A stretch of DNA of 64,000 bases from NCBI GenBank assembly GCA_020851035.1, contig JADZDM010000028.1, positions 1 to 64,000 on the forward strand, in the 5' to 3' direction. This document shows positions 10,739 to 21,350 of the stretch, piece by piece (position 1 is the first letter of the stretch; every line of letters starts with the position of its first letter). Under the pieces are notes generated by a model that worked only from the letters and a program-made list of their open reading frames with translations, had not been told where the DNA came from and ran no database searches. The translations under genes and the position numbers were made by a program. Source of the DNA: Gemmatimonadaceae bacterium (GTDB lineage: Bacteria > Gemmatimonadota > Gemmatimonadetes > Gemmatimonadales > Gemmatimonadaceae).

Positions 10739-11152
10739 TTACTCCACGCCACCGGTGGAAGAGCCCGGCGCACCAGCTTCCCCGTGCGCGCCGTCGTCCA
10801 CCTTGTGCTTCGCGAGCGTCGAAGTGACGGCGAGCTCGATGCCGGACTTGAGCACCCCGACCCGCTCCCGGAGCATCCGGACCTTCACCTGGTCGGCCCC
10901 GCCCCCCCGGGTGGCCACGAGGATCAGGTCGCTGGCCATGTCGGCCAGGAGCTGGAACTGGCTGCGAAGCAGCCCCACCAGCGGCGTGGCGGCCCGCTTG
11001 ATCTGCTGGGGGTAGGCGGCAGTCGCCTGTCCGGTGCGGACGGCGATGGCGTACTTCTCGACCAGGCCGTGCACGGTCTGGGCAAGGGAGGTCGCGGTCT
11101 CCAGGGACTGGAGCTTGGCCTGACCTGGGCCATCAACGGTGGGTTTCGCCAT
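10739..11152 (-). CDS. Hypothetical helical protein
   Basis: 137 residues, no family recognised. It is predicted almost wholly helical, without signal peptide or membrane segment, so it is probably cytosolic. The middle (about 30-75) alternates hydrophobic and Gln/Arg-rich stretches like a four-helix bundle, and the last 20 residues are Gly/Ser-rich and probably disordered. The start is ATG 11152, with a TAGATT box 8 nt upstream (11161-11166), so the leader would be at most a nucleotide or two. It lies upstream of ctaC in the same direction but 255 nt away, so it is probably a separate unit. Confidence 0.6.
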   Translation of the reverse strand: MAKPTVDGPGQAKLQSLETATSLAQTVHGLVEKYAIAVRTGQATAAYPQQIKRAATPLVGLLRSQFQLLADMASDLILVATRGGGADQVKVRMLRERVGVLKSGIELAVTSTLAKHKVDDGAHGEAGAPGSSTGGVE

Positions 11153-12618: not shown

Positions 12619-14475
12619 TCAGCGACCGGCCATCGACTCCGGACGCAGCACGTCGTCGAGTTGCTCACGCGTGAGCCAGCCGCGCTCGAGCACGATCTCG
12701 GTCACGCCGCGCCCCGTCGCGAGTGCCTCCTTCGCGACGTCGGTGGCCTTCTCGTAGCCGATCACCGGCAGCAGCGCGGTCACCACGCCGATCGAGTGCT
12801 CCACGTAGTACCGCATCCGGTCTGCATTCGCCGTGATACCTGAGATGCACCTGGACTCGAGCACCTGGATCGCGTTCGTCAGCTCCTTGATGCCACCGAG
12901 CAGCCGGTAGGCGATGATCGGCTCGAACACGTTGAGCTGGAGCTGCCCCGCCTCGGCCGCCATCGTGATCGTGACGTCGCCACCGATGATGTCGAAGCAG
13001 ACCTGGTTGACCACCTCGGGGATCACCGGGTTCACCTTGCCCGGCATGATGCTGCTGCCCGGCTGCACCGGCGGCAGGTTGATCTCGCCGAAGCCGGCGC
13101 GTGGCCCCGACGAGAGCAGCCGCAGGTCGTTGCAGATCTTCGACAGCTTGGTGGCGGTGCGCTTGAGCACGCCGCTCAGCTGCACGAAGGCACCGGTGTC
13201 ACTGGTGGCCTCGATCAGGTCCGGCGCGGTGATCATCACCAGCCCCGTCACCTCCGAGAGGTGGCGCCGCACCGAGGTGGTGAACGACTCCGACGCCGTG
13301 ATGCCGGTCCCGATCGCGGTGGCGCCCATGTTCATCTCGCGCATCAGCGCCTGCGCCTCGGCGAGCCGGTCCACGTCCTCCATCAGCGTGTGGGCCCACG
13401 CCCGGAACTCGCGGCCGAGCGTCATCGGCACCGCGTCCTGCAGCTGCGTGCGGCCCATCTTGATGAGCGACGCGAACTCGACACCCTTCACGTCCATCGC
13501 CCCGCACAGCGACCGCAACGCGTCCCGCAGGCCGTCGAGCGCGGTGTGCAGCGCGATGCGGATGGACGTCGGATAGACGTCGTTGGTGCTCTGGCTGCGG
13601 TTCACGTGCTCGTTGGGGTGCACCACGTCATAGCTGCCGCGCGACCGCCCGAGGATCTCGAGCGCGCGATTCGCGATGACCTCGTTGGCGTTCATGTTGG
13701 TGCTCGTCCCGGCCCCGCCCTGGATCATGTCCACGATGAAGTGCTCGTGGTGCCGGCCCGCCCGCAGCTCCTCGCCGGCCCTGATGATCGCCTCGGCGAT
13801 GTGGTCGGGCAGCAGCCCGAGCTCGTGGTTGGCACGCGCGGCGGCGATCTTCACGCAGGCCAGTCCGGCGATCAGCTCGGGAACCTCGCGCAGCGGCACA
13901 CCGGTGATGGGAAAGTTCTCGGCGGCGCGCAGTGTCTGCACACCGTAGAGCGCCTCATCGGGCACCTCCCGATCGCCGAGCAGGTCGTGCTCGGTGCGCA
14001 TGCGCCGGCTGCCGAACCCCAGCGCGCGGCCGCGGCCCACCAGCGTCGCGTCGGCCACCCGCAGCCGCTGGGCGATCGCCCGCGCGGCGCGGGCCACCAG
14101 GCCGGCATAGAGGTGGGGATTGTCCTTCACCACCTCGGCCAGCTTCTCCTTGCGCAGGATCAGCAGCTCGCCGGCGATGACGGCACGGGCGGTGGTGCCA
14201 TGGCGGGTGTCATCGAGCAGCATGCCCTCGCCGATCGCCTCGCCGGGACCCATGGTCACCAGGCGCACCGTGCGCCCCTCGGCGGTCTTCTCGATGGTCA
14301 CGCCGCCGGTCACCACCAGCGCGAACATCGAGCGCTCCTCACCTTCGCGGAAGAACACGTCTTCGGTGGCGAAGGAGTGCGGCTCGACGGCGTGTGCCAG
14401 GCGCCAGAGCTGTGCGTCAGGAAGACCCTGCACGAACGGCAGCGCCTTCAGCTGTTTGAGAATCGCGTTTTTCAT
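12619..14475 (-). CDS. aspA: Aspartate ammonia-lyase with N-terminal cyclic-nucleotide-binding domain
   Basis: A 618-residue fusion. Residues about 14-125 form a CRP-type cyclic-nucleotide-binding domain, with a phosphate-binding cassette GEAIGEGMLLDD followed by the ligand-type Arg91. Residues about 155-618 are a complete aspartase of the fumarase/aspartase superfamily: TEHDLLGD entry, GAGTSTNMNANEV (255-267), NRSQSTNDVYPT (292-303) and the signature GSSIMPGKVNP (473-483). It should convert L-aspartate to fumarate and ammonia, with activity probably tuned by a bound nucleotide. Canonical aspartase is about 470 residues and lacks the first domain. It lies 52 nt after the Mur-ligase-like gene, with a -10 box (TAGCTT, 6 nt from ATG) of its own, so it may be transcribed both ways. 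Confidence 0.92.
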   Translation of the reverse strand: MKNAILKQLKALPFVQGLPDAQLWRLAHAVEPHSFATEDVFFREGEERSMFALVVTGGVTIEKTAEGRTVRLVTMGPGEAIGEGMLLDDTRHGTTARAVIAGELLILRKEKLAEVVKDNPHLYAGLVARAARAIAQRLRVADATLVGRGRALGFGSRRMRTEHDLLGDREVPDEALYGVQTLRAAENFPITGVPLREVPELIAGLACVKIAAARANHELGLLPDHIAEAIIRAGEELRAGRHHEHFIVDMIQGGAGTSTNMNANEVIANRALEILGRSRGSYDVVHPNEHVNRSQSTNDVYPTSIRIALHTALDGLRDALRSLCGAMDVKGVEFASLIKMGRTQLQDAVPMTLGREFRAWAHTLMEDVDRLAEAQALMREMNMGATAIGTGITASESFTTSVRRHLSEVTGLVMITAPDLIEATSDTGAFVQLSGVLKRTATKLSKICNDLRLLSSGPRAGFGEINLPPVQPGSSIMPGKVNPVIPEVVNQVCFDIIGGDVTITMAAEAGQLQLNVFEPIIAYRLLGGIKELTNAIQVLESRCISGITANADRMRYYVEHSIGVVTALLPVIGYEKATDVAKEALATGRGVTEIVLERGWLTREQLDDVLRPESMAGR

Positions 14476-14481
14476 GGGCCC

Positions 14482-14487
14482 AAGCTA
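14482..14487 (-). promoter_or_regulatory. aspA: -10 box 6 nt before the aspartase start (leaderless)
   Basis: TAGCTT, then GGGCCC, then ATG on the minus strand. It gives the aspartase gene its own predicted start site despite lying within the cph gene run. Confidence 0.5.
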
Positions 14488-14527
14488 TGCGCGTGCATGT
14501 GCGCCGGGCAGCAGCCGGAACCGCGAT

Positions 14528-16237
14528 TCAGCCGGCCCCGCCAGCGGTCCACGCAGGCACCGGGTCGCCGGCCTGCCAGCCGATCCGTGCCAGTTCTGCA
14601 AGGAAAGCGAGCACGGCGTCCCGGTCGGCGTGCACGGCGAGCAGGATGACATCACCCGCCTGCGCCCACTGCACGGCGAGGCGGGCAGCGGCAACGTCAT
14701 CCGCGGCCGCGGCACACTGCCCGTCGGGCACGCCCAGACCGTGCAACGCGGCGAGCAGCACGCCGCTGATCGACCCCGGCTCGCGCCCGCGCAGGAACCG
14801 CGGCATCTCCTTCGCGATGTAGAGGTCGATCACGCCGGCGCGCACGGCTGCCGCGGCGATGTCGTGCAGTGCCTCGTCGTCACGGTCGCCGCCGGTGGCG
14901 AGGGTGATGGCACGACGATGGCCCGCCAGGTGCCGCGTGGCGTCGATCAGGGCCGCCACGCCCTGCGGATTGTGGGCGTAGTCCACCACGACGGTCACGC
15001 CGCCGATGGTCTGGACCATGAGCCGCCCCATGTTGTCCGCCGGGTCGGCACCGAAGACCAGCAGCGCGCGCTGCGCGGCGGGAGGCAGTGCCAGTTCGCC
15101 GGCGACAGCGAGGGCGATGCGTGCGTTGAGCAGGTTGTGCGATGCGGCACCGCCGAGGGTGGCCGGGATGGCGCGCAACTCCTCCGCGGTGAGGGCCGCA
15201 GAGCCATCGGCGTGCACGAGATGCGTGCGGCCGGCGTACCCGGCGATCGCGTCCCGCAAGGCAGGCACGTCGCCGTTGACGACCAGCACCCCGGTCTCCT
15301 CCACCGCGCGCGTCACGACGAGCTTCGCCGCGGCCAGTGCGGCGAGGTCGGTGATGCCGTAGTCGCCGAAGTGGTCGGGCGAGAGCGTCACCACCGCCGC
15401 CACGGCAGCACGCTGCACGGCGAGCCCACGCCGCAGCATGCCCCCACGGGCAGACTCCAGCACGGCCAGTGTCACACGCGGGTCCTGCAGCACGCGCCGC
15501 GCACCGGCGGGACCGGACCAGTCGCCGCGCTCCACCCGCGCCCCGTCGATCCAGACACCGTCGGTGCAGGTGTGGCCGACCACATGCCCCGCGGCCCGTG
15601 CCATGGCCGCCACCATCCGCACGACGGTGGTCTTGCCGTTGGACCCGGTGACGAGGACGATCGGGATGTCGCGGATCGCGACCCAATCCACCTCGGAGAC
15701 CTTGGGCAGCAGCGTCAGTGGCCATCCGGTCGCGCCCGCACCGGTGCCGACGAAGAGCGCGGCATCGTCGAAGGTGACGTTCAGGCCCAGCCGCTGTCCC
15801 TCGTTCCAGAGCGCGCGGAGTCGAGGCGACGCCTCGCTGTCGCTGGCGGCACGCAGGGCCGGCAGCGCCGTGTCCGGGCCGGCGGCACTGGCACCGCGGA
15901 CGACCGCCTCGGCGGAGACCCACGCCGTCTCGCACACCTCGGTGGCGGTCATGAGCTGGTCGATCGGCGCGTGGACGAACAGGCTCGCGCCGCCGGGATA
16001 GCGCCGGACCGCCGTCTCTGCGTCAGGCCAGCCGAGTGCGGCGGCGAGTCCGGCCGCCTGCCGCTCCCACGCCTCCACCAGCGCCACCGCGTCCGTGTCG
16101 TGGTCGTCCAGCATCACGTCGAGCACGGCACCCAGGCCCGGGTGCATGAGGTTCGGACCCATCAGCCGGCGCGAGTCGACGATGGCCGGGGAGGGGTACC
16201 CCGACACGAGGTCCGGATCGCGCGGTGGGCGCGTCAT
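14528..16237 (-). CDS. Cyanophycin-synthetase-like Mur ligase lacking the ATP-grasp domain
   Basis: 569 residues. Residues about 19-165 look like a degenerate CphA N-domain: RRLMGPNLMHPGLGAVLDV resembles the CphA opening, but the HxxEH site of CphA is absent and the matching stretch reads TATEVCETAW. The ATP-grasp domain is missing. From about 190 a Mur-ligase module follows, with the ATP loop VTGSNGKTT (196-204), a LESARGG motif, an LSPDHFGDYG segment and DYAHNPQG. In CphA the ATP-grasp half adds Asp and the Mur half adds Arg to the Asp side chain, so this enzyme should catalyse only a Mur-type amide bond on an existing acceptor. It starts 30 nt after the cphA stop. The substrate is unknown; similar genes occur beside cphA elsewhere, to my recollection. 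Confidence 0.75.
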   Translation of the reverse strand: MTRPPRDPDLVSGYPSPAIVDSRRLMGPNLMHPGLGAVLDVMLDDHDTDAVALVEAWERQAAGLAAALGWPDAETAVRRYPGGASLFVHAPIDQLMTATEVCETAWVSAEAVVRGASAAGPDTALPALRAASDSEASPRLRALWNEGQRLGLNVTFDDAALFVGTGAGATGWPLTLLPKVSEVDWVAIRDIPIVLVTGSNGKTTVVRMVAAMARAAGHVVGHTCTDGVWIDGARVERGDWSGPAGARRVLQDPRVTLAVLESARGGMLRRGLAVQRAAVAAVVTLSPDHFGDYGITDLAALAAAKLVVTRAVEETGVLVVNGDVPALRDAIAGYAGRTHLVHADGSAALTAEELRAIPATLGGAASHNLLNARIALAVAGELALPPAAQRALLVFGADPADNMGRLMVQTIGGVTVVVDYAHNPQGVAALIDATRHLAGHRRAITLATGGDRDDEALHDIAAAAVRAGVIDLYIAKEMPRFLRGREPGSISGVLLAALHGLGVPDGQCAAAADDVAAARLAVQWAQAGDVILLAVHADRDAVLAFLAELARIGWQAGDPVPAWTAGGAG

Positions 16238-16267
16238 GCGTGCGCAGTCTGGTCGGTCGCGGTCGGC

Positions 16268-19177
16268 TCAGTCGTTGGCTTCGCGGGCAAGGTACACACC
16301 ACGATCATCGCGGATGATGGTGGTGCCGGCTTCCTCGGTGTCGCGATGCGTCGAGACCGGCAGCTTGTCGCGCAGCGAGCCGGGGATGGCATAGGTGTCC
16401 GTGATCTGGCGCACGGGCGCGTCGGCCGCAGGCGGCGCGGCGGGCAGGTCGTCATCGGCCAGTTCGACCACGTCCGGCGCGATCGTCTGCGGCACCTGGC
16501 GCTTCGGCGAGACGAGAGATGCCCGGTCGAAGTCCGGCTTGAACTGCGTGATCTGCTTCCAGCCGCGTGCGAGCGCATCGGCGAAGATGAGCACCAGGTC
16601 ACCCGGCTGCGCGTGCCGCAGCGCGGTATCGATCGCCGCCTGCTCGTCGACGATGACCTCCACCCGGTCCTGGCTGATGCCATGCGAGAGCAGGGTGGCC
16701 TCCAGCATGCGCGGCACCTCGTCGTCGCCACGGCCGCGGCGGCTGTCATCGCGGCGGCAGATGTAGTGGTCGAAGAGGCCGGCGGCGGCCACGTCACCGA
16801 TGGCGGCGATATCCTGGTCGCGACGGTCACCGGGGGCGGCGAGCACGCAGATGCGGCGCCCCTTCACGTCGAGCCGATTGGCGAGCTGGCAGAGCTGCTC
16901 GATGGCGTCGGCGTTGTGGCCGTAGTCGAAGAGCACGCGGAACGGATGCTGGTCGTACACGTTCAACCGGCCCGGCGCCTGGAAGAAGCTGGTGTCGAAG
17001 GTGCGCAGGCCGTGGCGGATGTCCTCGAGGCGCACGCCCATCGCGAACGCCATCGCCGCGGCGAACATCGCGTTCTGCACGTTGTGCAGCGCCTTGCCCT
17101 CGATGGTCGCCGGGATGAGGTGCGTCCAGAGCAGCGGGATGTGTGCGCCGTGGTCGTAGATGGTGATCATCGACCCGTTGATCCCGTTCTCGAGCGCAAT
17201 GGCGCGGCCGCCGGCGCGAATGTGCTCGCGCACCAGCTCGTGGTCCGGGTTCAGCGTCACATAGCAGACGTGCTTCGCGTCGGTGTAGGCCGCCATCCGC
17301 AGCGTGTGCGGATCGTCGGCATTCAGCACCGCCGTGTCGCGCGCGATCTCCACCACCGTGCGCTTGATCTCGGCCAGCTGCTCGAGGGTGTCGATGTTCT
17401 TCTGGCCGAGGTGGTCGGGGCGCACGTTGAGCACCGCGCCGACGTCCACGTAGCGGGTGGCCATGCCGGCACGCAGCAGGCCGCCGCGTGCGGTTTCGAG
17501 GACGGCCACGTCCACCATCGGGTCGCTGAGCACGATGCGCGCGGCGGTGGGGCCGGTCATGTCGCCGACGACGGTGCGCTGGCCATCGATGTAGACGCCG
17601 TCGGTGGTGGTGAGGCCCACCCGCTTGCCCGAGAGCTTGTGGATGTGCGCCAGCATGCGCGACGTGGTGGTCTTGCCGTTGGTGCCGGTGATGGCCGCGA
17701 TGGGGATCGTGACCGGGGCGCCCGCGGGGAAGAGCATGTCGATGGTCTTGCCAGCCACGTCACGCGGACGCCCGTCGCTGGGCGCCATGTGCATGCGGAA
17801 GCCCGGGGCGGCGTTGATCTCGCAGATCGCGCCGCCGATTTCCTTGTAGCTCTGCGTGATGTCGGGGGTGAGGAAGTCCACACCCCCGATGTCGAGCCCG
17901 ATCGCCTTGATCGCCCGCACCGCCATCTCGGCGTTGTCGGGGTGCACCAGGTCGGTCATGTCGCGCGCGGTGCCGCCGGTGCTGAGGTTGGCGGTGAGGC
18001 GCAGATAGACCACCTCGTCGACGGACGGGATCGTCAGCGGCGTGTAGCCAAGCTTGTCGAGCAGGCCCATCGCCTGCTCATCGAGCTCGATGCGGGTGAG
18101 CACCTTCTCGTGGCCGATACCGCGGCGCGGGTCGGCGTTCACGTTCGCGACCAGCTGCTCGATGGTGTGTACGCCATCTCCGATGACGTGACCGGGCTCG
18201 CGCTTCGATACCGCGACCAGCTCACCGTCGATCACCACCATGCGGTGATCGTGGCCGGTGATGAACGTCTCGACGATCACGCTGCGCGAGTGTTCCTGCG
18301 CCCGCGCGAAGGCCTCGTGGATCTCGGCGTTGGTGCTGAGGTTGATCGAGACACCGCGTCCATGGTTGCCGTTGTACGGCTTGAGCACCACCGGGCGCCC
18401 GATGCGATCTGCCGCACTGACCGCGCGCTCGGCCGTCTGTACCAGCCGCTGCTTCGGCACCGGCAAACCGAGGTTGGCGAGGATCTTGTTCGTCTCCTCC
18501 TTGTCGCCGGCCAGCTCGACGGCGATGTGCGACGTGCGCCCGGTGACGGTGGCCTGGATGCGCTGCTGGTGCACGCCGTAGCCGAGCTGGATCAGCGACT
18601 GCTCGTTGAGCCGGATCCACGGGATGCCGCGCTTCTCTGCGGCGTGCACGATGCTGGCGGTGCTGGGGCCGAGGGCGCGGCGCTGGGCGTAGCGGATGAA
18701 CGTGTCGCGGCGGGATTCCCAGTCGAAACTCGGGTCGAAGTCGTCGGGGCGCAGCTCGGGCGGCAGCATGGAGTGCAGCAGGTCGAGCGACAGGTCGGCG
18801 GCCTCGATGCCCACGTCCTCCTGCTCGTACTCGAACGCCACGTCGTAGACACCCTCGCGGCCGGCGCTGCGCGTCTTGCCGAACGTCACGGCGATGCCGG
18901 CGGTGTTCTGCATCTCCAGCACCACGTGCTCGAACACGTGACCGAGCCAGGTGCCTTCATCCTCGGTCATGCGGCGGATGAATCCACCCGGTTCGCCGTA
19001 GCTGCAGCCGTGCTCCCTCAGGCCGGGCAGGCGCTCGATGAGCGTGTCGATGAAACCGCGTCCCAGTCGCATCGTCGGCCAGGCTTCGAGTGCACCGAGG
19101 TCCACTTCCAGCCGGATGACCGGGAAGTGTGCGTAGTGACTGGGCCCGACGTAGACGTTGCGATCGAGGATCTTCAT
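16268..19177 (-). CDS. cphA: Cyanophycin synthetase
   Basis: A 969-residue enzyme that polymerises Asp and Arg, using ATP, into the nitrogen reserve cyanophycin. The N-domain (1 to about 160) carries HVFEH (80-84), the HxxEH metal site reported to cut cyanophycin into primers in cyanobacterial CphA. The ATP-grasp domain (about 161-485) includes KEETNKIL, VVLKPYNGNHGRGV (263-276) and GGVDF, and adds Asp. The Mur-ligase domain (about 490-880) has ITGTNGKTTTSRM (496-508), ETARGG and DYGHN, and adds Arg. About 80 Pro/Asp-rich residues at the C-terminus exceed the usual length of roughly 870-900. Its ATG overlaps the cphB stop by 4 nt (ATGA), so the two are translationally coupled. Confidence 0.97.
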   Translation of the reverse strand: MKILDRNVYVGPSHYAHFPVIRLEVDLGALEAWPTMRLGRGFIDTLIERLPGLREHGCSYGEPGGFIRRMTEDEGTWLGHVFEHVVLEMQNTAGIAVTFGKTRSAGREGVYDVAFEYEQEDVGIEAADLSLDLLHSMLPPELRPDDFDPSFDWESRRDTFIRYAQRRALGPSTASIVHAAEKRGIPWIRLNEQSLIQLGYGVHQQRIQATVTGRTSHIAVELAGDKEETNKILANLGLPVPKQRLVQTAERAVSAADRIGRPVVLKPYNGNHGRGVSINLSTNAEIHEAFARAQEHSRSVIVETFITGHDHRMVVIDGELVAVSKREPGHVIGDGVHTIEQLVANVNADPRRGIGHEKVLTRIELDEQAMGLLDKLGYTPLTIPSVDEVVYLRLTANLSTGGTARDMTDLVHPDNAEMAVRAIKAIGLDIGGVDFLTPDITQSYKEIGGAICEINAAPGFRMHMAPSDGRPRDVAGKTIDMLFPAGAPVTIPIAAITGTNGKTTTSRMLAHIHKLSGKRVGLTTTDGVYIDGQRTVVGDMTGPTAARIVLSDPMVDVAVLETARGGLLRAGMATRYVDVGAVLNVRPDHLGQKNIDTLEQLAEIKRTVVEIARDTAVLNADDPHTLRMAAYTDAKHVCYVTLNPDHELVREHIRAGGRAIALENGINGSMITIYDHGAHIPLLWTHLIPATIEGKALHNVQNAMFAAAMAFAMGVRLEDIRHGLRTFDTSFFQAPGRLNVYDQHPFRVLFDYGHNADAIEQLCQLANRLDVKGRRICVLAAPGDRRDQDIAAIGDVAAAGLFDHYICRRDDSRRGRGDDEVPRMLEATLLSHGISQDRVEVIVDEQAAIDTALRHAQPGDLVLIFADALARGWKQITQFKPDFDRASLVSPKRQVPQTIAPDVVELADDDLPAAPPAADAPVRQITDTYAIPGSLRDKLPVSTHRDTEEAGTTIIRDDRGVYLAREAND

Positions 19178-20004
19178 TCAGGCAGGCCAGAGTGCTGGAG
19201 GGTGACCACGTTGCTGCCGTGGGCCTTGCGGGTGCGCATGTCGTAGCCGGCGCCCTGCGTGAGCAGGTGCATGCGCAGGCCGATCATCGTGATGGGATCG
19301 TACTTCCCGGCCAGCCACATGGACGTGAACTCGGTTTTCGAGGTGTCGATGACGGTGACGGCGCTGGTGCCCATGACGTCGATCTCGTCGTCGGGGCTGA
19401 TGAAGGCCGCCGTGTCCTCGTCCACGCCGAGTCCGAGGAAGCCCGGGTGGGAGGAGAGGGCGGTGAGCAGGCGGCCGAGTCGGTCGCGCTGGCGGAAGTG
19501 CTGGTCGATGATGATGTCGTTGGTGAGGCCGAAGCCCGGTACCAGCGTGACGATGCCGGCGCGAGGTGTCGGCCCTTCCTCGCCGCCGCCGATCATGTGC
19601 TCCGACATCACCGCGGCACCGGCGCTGGTGCCGGCCACCGGCATGCCGGCGGCGAAGCGTGCGCGCAGCAGGCGGGAGGCGGGGGTGCCGCCCATGATGT
19701 TGGTGAGACGGAGCTGGTTGCCGCCGGTGATGAAGACGCCGTCGCAGTCTTCCAGCTCGCCGAGCCAGTCGCGATCGTCGCAGTCGCTGCGGCGCTGGAA
19801 GTTCAGGGCGCGGGCGTATTTCACGCCCATCTTCCGGAACTGCTTCTCGTACCATTCACCCATGTCCGCCTCTTCGGAGGCGGTGGGGATGATGGCGATG
19901 ACCGGGTTGCGGCCGCAGATGCCGATGAACCGGTCGAGGATGGCGGCGTCGGTGAGCTTGCCGCCGATGGGGATGAGCCAGCCTTTGCTGTGGGTGGTCG
20001 TCAT
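19174..20004 (-). CDS. cphB: Cyanophycinase (S51 family serine exopeptidase)
   Basis: A 276-residue cytosolic peptidase that releases beta-Asp-Arg dipeptides from cyanophycin. The nucleophile elbow is GTSAGA (125-130, Ser127), preceded by the oxyanion-type FITGGNQLRL segment (91-100) and followed by the LVPGFGLTNDIIIDQHF region with the likely His. Length and motif spacing match CphB rather than peptidase E. It is the first gene of the cphB-cphA run, and its stop overlaps the cphA start. A TACCTT box 5 nt before ATG predicts a leaderless message. It is divergent from iadA over 212 nt that hold no other gene. Confidence 0.96.
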   Translation of the reverse strand: MTTTHSKGWLIPIGGKLTDAAILDRFIGICGRNPVIAIIPTASEEADMGEWYEKQFRKMGVKYARALNFQRRSDCDDRDWLGELEDCDGVFITGGNQLRLTNIMGGTPASRLLRARFAAGMPVAGTSAGAAVMSEHMIGGGEEGPTPRAGIVTLVPGFGLTNDIIIDQHFRQRDRLGRLLTALSSHPGFLGLGVDEDTAAFISPDDEIDVMGTSAVTVIDTSKTEFTSMWLAGKYDPITMIGLRMHLLTQGAGYDMRTRKAHGSNVVTLQHSGLPE

Positions 20005-20216: not shown

Positions 20217-21350
20217 ATGACTATCGAACAGAGCGAGGCCGGGGGGATGCGGCTGGTGCTGAACGCGGATGTATATGCGCCAGAACACCTTGGGCATCGG
20301 CACATCCTGACGGGGGGTGGGCGGATCCTGTGGATGGGGACGGACCGGCCGTCGTTTCCGGGCTACCTCGGGGTGGAGGAGGTGGACCTGGCGGGGCGGC
20401 AGGTGATCCCGGGGTTGATCGACGGGCATTGCCACGTGACCGGAGGCGGCGGCGAGGCGGGGCCGGCCTCGAAGGTCCCCGCTCCCTTGGCTGAGTCGTA
20501 CCGGAAGGCGGGAGTGACGACGGTGGTGGGGGTGCTGGGGACCGATGATGTCACGCGGTCCACGGCGGAGCTGATCGCGGGGGTGCGTGCGCTGCGAGCG
20601 CAGGGGATCAACGCGTGGTGTCACACGGGCGGGTATCACCTGCCGCTGACGACGCTCACGGGGTCGGTGCGGTCGGACATCGTGAACATCGATTGTGTGA
20701 TCGGGGTGGGTGAGGTCGCGATTTCAGATCACCGGTCATCGCAGCCGACGCTGGATGAGCTGCTGCGGATCGCGGCGGACGCGCACGTGGCGGGGTTGAT
20801 GACAGGCAAGGCGGGGATCCTGCACCTGCACGTGGGTGATGGGCCGCGGGGCCTCGAGTTGATTCGTGAGGCGTTGCGGGTGTCGGAGATTCCGGCGCGG
20901 GTGTTCAATCCGACGCACGTGAACCGGCGGAAGGGGTTGCTGCACGAGGCGATTGCGCTCGTGAAAGAGCATGGGTGTTACATCGACATCACGGACTTTC
21001 CGGTGGCCGATGGTGAAGACGCCTATTCGGCTGCCGACGCGCTCGAGGTGTATTGGGAGTCGGGGGCGCCGCTCGACCGCGTCACTGTTTCGTCGGATGG
21101 TGGGGGGTGTTTGCCTGTCTTTGGGCCGGATGGGCAGGTGGTGTCGTACGACGTTGGGGATTGCTCGGCGTTGATGGGGACGGTGCGGACGTTGGTTGGG
21201 CGGGGGCATGCGCTGGAGCAGGTGCTGCCGGCGTTCACGCAGAATGCGGCGGTGCTGCTGCGGATGCGTGATGTTGGCGAACTCGCGCTGGGACATCGCG
21301 ACGACGCCGTGTTGTTCGGCGCCGGCCCGACTTCGATCACGCGTGACTGA
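20217..21350 (+). CDS. iadA: Isoaspartyl dipeptidase
   Basis: A 377-residue amidohydrolase that splits beta-Asp dipeptides, here most likely the beta-Asp-Arg made by cyanophycinase. Binuclear metal motifs are visible: GLIDGHCH (66-73), the bridging-ligand segment GVGEVAISDHRS (163-174), LHVGDG, NPTHVNR and SSDGGG. In E. coli IadA the bridge is a carboxylated Lys162; the aligned residue here appears to be Glu166. Two starts are possible: ATG 20217 with a -10 box 6 nt upstream, or ATG 20247, which has a GAGG 8 nt before it and gives the usual N-terminus. It is divergent from cphB and completes the degradation pathway. Confidence 0.92.
   Translation: MTIEQSEAGGMRLVLNADVYAPEHLGHRHILTGGGRILWMGTDRPSFPGYLGVEEVDLAGRQVIPGLIDGHCHVTGGGGEAGPASKVPAPLAESYRKAGVTTVVGVLGTDDVTRSTAELIAGVRALRAQGINAWCHTGGYHLPLTTLTGSVRSDIVNIDCVIGVGEVAISDHRSSQPTLDELLRIAADAHVAGLMTGKAGILHLHVGDGPRGLELIREALRVSEIPARVFNPTHVNRRKGLLHEAIALVKEHGCYIDITDFPVADGEDAYSAADALEVYWESGAPLDRVTVSSDGGGCLPVFGPDGQVVSYDVGDCSALMGTVRTLVGRGHALEQVLPAFTQNAAVLLRMRDVGELALGHRDDAVLFGAGPTSITRD

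Follow-up and report, generated by a model that had tools for sequence, protein, structure and literature searches.

A CNB–aspartase fusion closes a cyanophycin gene cluster

The window, the whole stretch of 64,000 nucleotides of Gemmatimonadaceae DNA analysed here, carries on its reverse strand a gene cluster that runs from CphB through CphA and a Mur-ligase-type CphA homologue to a fusion gene, which stands last and joins a domain of the cyclic-nucleotide-binding (CNB) fold to an aspartase (Table 1). The frame of the fusion gene is uninterrupted over its 618 codons. Going by the families for which the genes are named, the cluster and a divergent IadA-like gene beside it would together degrade cyanophycin to arginine, aspartate, fumarate and ammonia. 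The tandem of CphA and a shorter, Mur-ligase-only homologue (14528–19177, −) recurs in many Gemmatimonadota. Antisense to the CphA genes lies an open frame of 1708 codons (14120–19246, +), which appears to be a shadow frame of high-GC DNA and no true gene.

Table 1 Features of the fusion gene and its neighbours in the window
Feature	Coordinates	Strand	Remarks
CNB–aspartase fusion gene, 618 aa	12619–14475	−	Start codon 14473–14475, stop 12619–12621
CNB domain and long C-helix, residues 1–141	14053–14475	−	Pfam cNMP_binding; model of the CNB alone
Arg48 codon, β2–β3 loop	14332–14334	−	Invariant (74/74); Gly in canonical CNBs
Phosphate-binding-cassette region, residues 82–97 (GEGMLLDDTRHGTTAR)	14185–14232	−	Glu83 and His92 invariant (74/74)
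Arg91 codon, residue picked by the original prediction	14203–14205	−	Arg in 8/74
His92 codon, equivalent to PKA RIα Arg209	14200–14202	−	HMMER alignments and conservation
Linker, residues 142–157	14005–14052	−	Low predicted confidence; conserved G147, R148, G149, F/Y154
Aspartase domain, residues 158–618	12622–14004	−	Pfam, NCBIfam and PDB matches
SS-loop GSSIMPGKVNP (aspartase/fumarase signature), residues 473–483	13027–13059	−	
Mur-ligase-type cyanophycin synthetase homologue, 569 aa	14528–16237	−	Followed by the fusion gene after 52 bp
CphA cyanophycin synthetase, 969 aa	16268–19177	−	TIGR02068, 1128 bits
CphB cyanophycinase	19174–20004	−	TIGR02069, 233 bits
Isoaspartyl dipeptidase (IadA)-like, divergent	20217–21350	+	TIGR01975, 327.8 bits, slightly under cut-off of 331
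Small uncharacterised protein, start codon uncertain	10742–11152	−	Conserved downstream of fused aspartases

Both halves of the protein are recognised by domain profiles. Pfam places cNMP_binding at residues 33–118 (E = 3.2e-13, above the gathering score), followed by Lyase_1 (168–498) and FumaraseC_C (565–616). With the NCBIfam aspartate ammonia-lyase model PRK12273 the protein reaches 726 bits (cut-off 510), and the equivalog TIGR00839 falls slightly under its own (670.5 versus 681.2); the fumarase models stay well below theirs, fumC reaching 458 bits against 665. The SS-loop and the motif QSTNDVYPT are both intact and near-invariant across 74 fused homologues, so the aspartase signature is complete, as the original prediction had read it. 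That prediction also held that the CNB domain stands apart from any DNA-binding helix, and a Pfam scan agrees: only lyase domains follow the CNB, with no helix-turn-helix in the protein and no HK97 capsid domain around the CNB. The same genome encodes a second, unfused aspartase/fumarase-type lyase (L040, contig C12, 1261–2916, +) that is 47% identical and scores 600 bits with PRK12273.

The AlphaFold model of the whole protein has a mean pLDDT of 80, with low confidence in the linker. A structure search with the whole protein returned lyases only, and the CNB domain was therefore folded and searched separately. On its own it is modelled with a pLDDT of 91 and matches solved CNBs, among them 3mdp, PKA, PKG, GlxR and a mycobacterial CRP, with Z of about 16–18; for the lyase half the best PDB matches, with Z of about 40–41, are aspartases and a fumarate lyase from Brucella (about 54% identity). 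The protein thus shares with L-aspartate ammonia-lyase (AspA) the complete lyase domain, the SS-loop, a PRK12273 score above cut-off and the PDB matches, and differs from it by the extra 157 residues of N-terminal CNB and linker.

The fusion is neither chance nor an assembly artefact, since full-length relatives occur at 89–90% identity in two other metagenome-assembled genomes (MAGs), and more remote ones are known too, the lowest, in one MAG each of Acidobacteria and Phycisphaerae, at about 51%. A search for the domain pair across genomes, the check that the original prediction had proposed, found 74 distinct homologues, and these, together with the Pfam and NCBIfam matches, bear out the joining of a CNB fold to a full aspartase.

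A conserved but remodelled CNB pocket

Residue conservation in the CNB domain was counted over the 74 distinct fused homologues. When the domain is aligned by HMMER to PKG domains that bind cGMP, the arginine that grips the phosphate in canonical CNB domains pairs with His92, not with Arg91. The spacing within the cassette agrees: PKA, PKG and CRPs from related Gemmatimonadota have the canonical arginine nine residues after the cassette glutamate, and the ninth residue after Glu83 is His92, which is histidine in every fused homologue. Column 91 varies, with arginine in 8 of the 74 and proline in 28, as would be expected of a residue that precedes the canonical arginine. Alignment and conservation together rule out Arg91 as a phosphate ligand, and with it the phosphate-binding cassette with Arg91 that had been proposed; that residue, taken at the outset as one that homologues ought to keep, is lost in most of them.

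Other parts of the pocket are kept or exchanged just as strictly. Glu83, at the position that contacts the ribose 2′-OH, is present in 74 of 74. The β2–β3 loop, usually Pro-Gly-Asp, reads Pro-Arg-x, with Arg48 invariant and followed by Gln, Arg, Glu or others, and the Gly-Asp of this loop (RIα 169–170) is absent from the fused CNBs. In PKA RIα, the loop aspartate pairs with the cassette arginine. On the C-helix, Arg137 is again present in all 74; by sequence, its counterpart in CRP could be either Thr127 or Arg123. The CRPs of related genomes retain arginine at the ninth position after the glutamate, mostly with a Gly-Asp loop. Beyond the window's genus, the CNB domain is only 25–53% identical to that of the window, against some 60–75% for the aspartase domain, and within so fast-changing a domain Arg48, Glu83, His92 and Arg137 stand out as kept.

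Judged by these residues, the pocket is conserved but remodelled, neither a canonical cAMP/cGMP site nor a decayed one, and it would be functional, rebuilt for another ligand. A degenerate CNB is unlikely given the four invariant charged residues. Compared with other PF00027 domains (PKA, PKG, CRP/GlxR), the fusion has the fold and the ribose-contacting glutamate in common, and differs in having histidine for the phosphate arginine, Arg-x for Gly-Asp and neither a DNA-binding domain nor a kinase partner; it likewise lacks the C-terminal helix-turn-helix of CRP/FNR regulators.

Distribution and history of the fusion

Among 395 Gemmatimonadota genomes drawn, the full-length fusion is common in Gemmatimonadaceae and present in several other families. 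A CNB profile search found the aspartase-type CNB in 31 of 39 drawn Gemmatimonadaceae genomes. Thirty of these fused domains score 170–231 bits and one, a fragment at a contig end, 110, whereas every other CNB in the 39 genomes scores at most 77; this gap indicates that the CNB subclass belongs to the aspartase, and within those genomes it is seen only there. We found no paper that joins aspartase and CNB in the open-access literature searched. The architecture is thus widespread, undescribed in that literature and marked by an altered CNB site.

The CNB is missing from a set of 12 otherwise similar Gemmatimonadaceae aspartases that occupy the same genomic slot, which indicates that the domain is dispensable for catalysis. 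In the aspartase tree these unfused proteins form one clade (SH-aLRT 96) nested among the fused ones, and the fused families f4 and f6 lie outside. A topology that unites the fused members of the family in one clade nevertheless survives the AU test (p = 0.33). The simplest reading, favoured but not proved, would be one fusion followed by loss of the CNB; loss is preferred over gain because all fused members, the fused outgroups included, share the His92/Arg48 signature. One Myxococcaceae locus (L014) takes a place within the Gemmatimonadaceae part of this tree, which a binning error may explain.

Aspartate release is the theme of the neighbourhood

A link between the fusion and the nitrogen reserve, part of the original prediction, holds in the window's genus, where the fusion gene closes the cyanophycin cluster; elsewhere it does not, as the adjacency was seen only in that genus and the fusion otherwise lies apart from cyanophycin genes. 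Cyanophycin linkage as a general property was accordingly rejected. By hand tally, about 43 of 95 fused Gemmatimonadaceae genomes carry a cyanophycin synthetase above cut-off.

At loci of other genera, fused and unfused alike, the aspartase often has a divergent β-aspartyl-peptidase-like gene (PRK10226, 106–121 bits, under the equivalog cut-off) upstream and the cox operon downstream. With CphB and the IadA-like protein as the aspartate-freeing neighbours in the window's genus and the β-aspartyl-peptidase-like gene elsewhere, what the neighbourhoods have in common is the release of aspartate and not cyanophycin itself.

The small protein whose gene follows the fusion gene recurs at no fewer than 24 fused loci, often with about 40 bp between the two genes, and was not found at complete unfused loci. 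The window's copy has no Pfam or NCBIfam match and is probably helical. It is a possible candidate partner of the fused aspartase.

A proposed ligand-gated aspartase and its alternatives

We propose that the protein is a ligand-gated aspartase whose CNB domain senses a non-canonical ligand, a reading to which we give even chances. The enzyme would convert L-aspartate to fumarate and ammonia and be regulated by its N-terminal CNB-fold domain. A small ligand would enter the remodelled pocket, marked by Glu83, by His92 in place of arginine, by Arg48 in place of the loop glycine and by Arg137 on the C-helix; its binding would shift the C-helix and the conserved linker residues, and this change would alter the activity of the aspartase tetramer. 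In all likelihood the ligand is neither cAMP nor cGMP in the customary binding mode but a different metabolite, nucleotide-like or related to amino acids, because every homologue examined lacks both the phosphate-gripping arginine and the aspartate that partners it. We infer that a ligand binds, that it gates the enzyme and in which direction, and that the aspartase is a tetramer. Supporting the proposal are the fusion itself, the predicted folds, the four invariant charged residues and the aspartate-releasing hydrolases nearby; against it stand the CNB-less clade of 12 in the same slot, the low-confidence linker and the existence of divergent CNBs that have no ligand.

The original prediction suggested that a nucleotide second messenger directly gates the conversion of aspartate to fumarate and ammonia. 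In that case cAMP, cGMP or a similar molecule would bind the CNB and switch the aspartase, with His92, Arg48 or Arg137 supplying the charge. The intact fold and Glu83 are compatible with this, and precedent exists in Bd1971, a bacterial c-di-GMP phosphodiesterase whose CNB senses cAMP (PMC6717892); the likeness is that of a CNB carried by a bacterial enzyme, the enzymes differ, and the cAMP sensing belongs to Bd1971. The pocket residues do not support it, given a histidine at the arginine position in 74 of 74 and an Arg-x loop in place of Gly-Asp. Nor is the fold enough: the CNB domains of Family 2B encapsulins, which have divergent sites, are reported to bind no cyclic nucleotide (PMC12407261). 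Like the fusion, these place a CNB fold with a divergent site on a non-regulatory protein, and a Family 2B encapsulin is among the best NCBIfam matches to the CNB part (41.7 bits, residues 5–133); theirs sits inside the capsid protein, and the likeness is one of fold and profile. A CNB on an enzyme therefore has precedents, but the fold alone is not proof of cyclic-nucleotide binding.

The rest of the genome points both ways. The aspartase CNB is the sole CNB domain found in it, and a single class III nucleotide cyclase was found (L112, contig C10, 1399–3228, −), which makes the two a candidate pair if the cyclase signals through a CNB. By eye, the cyclase carries aspartate at the lysine with which adenylyl cyclases select their substrate (adenine), which leaves its product unsure; the remaining catalytic motifs seem preserved. 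Several CNBs occur in related genomes, some of them CRPs that carry the canonical arginine. Overall, we regard gating by a cyclic nucleotide as unlikely.

We think it distinctly improbable that the CNB is instead a ligand-free structural module, serving C-helix dimerisation, stabilisation of the tetramer or docking of a partner. A structural role for the conserved charged residues is conceivable because divergent CNBs without a ligand are known, such as the homology domains of KCNH channels. Arg48, Glu83, His92 and Arg137 could form an internal salt-bridge network, the long C-helix resembles the dimer helix of CRP, and the small protein whose gene comes next at many fused loci could be what docks. 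Yet Glu83, kept without exception where the ribose is contacted, is easier to explain by a pocket than by a scaffold alone, and aspartases normally form stable tetramers without any CNB-like domain.

A further comparison is with the trypanosomatid PKA regulatory subunit, in which, as in the fusion, the canonical Arg209 is replaced and the ribose glutamate retained, and in which an Ala202-to-Glu change allows nucleosides to bind (PMC10959531). A nucleoside pocket of that type was rejected for the fusion, as column 85 holds Leu, Ile, Ser and others, with no Glu among the residues listed.

Implications for CNB domains and nitrogen metabolism

CNB domains are usually read as sensors of cAMP or cGMP. 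Here the residue that grips the phosphate has been replaced, and the replacement then fixed, on an enzyme of central nitrogen and carbon metabolism, which warns against labelling such domains as cyclic-nucleotide binding. With its concrete residue signature and an enzyme activity that is simple to assay, the fused family offers a way to seek a new CNB ligand. We advance, as a tentative extension that we hold somewhat less probable than its opposite, that the subclass defined by Arg48, Glu83, His92 and Arg137 binds a ligand new to CNB domains, for example a non-cyclic nucleotide or a metabolite of nitrogen status, and that aspartate deamination would be allosterically responsive across the phylum. 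With an invariant histidine at the phosphate-gripping position, the sensor domain of the aspartase in many Gemmatimonadota probably reads a signal other than a canonical cyclic nucleotide, and in genomes that place the fusion next to cyanophycin genes, the fused enzyme may govern the release of stored nitrogen.
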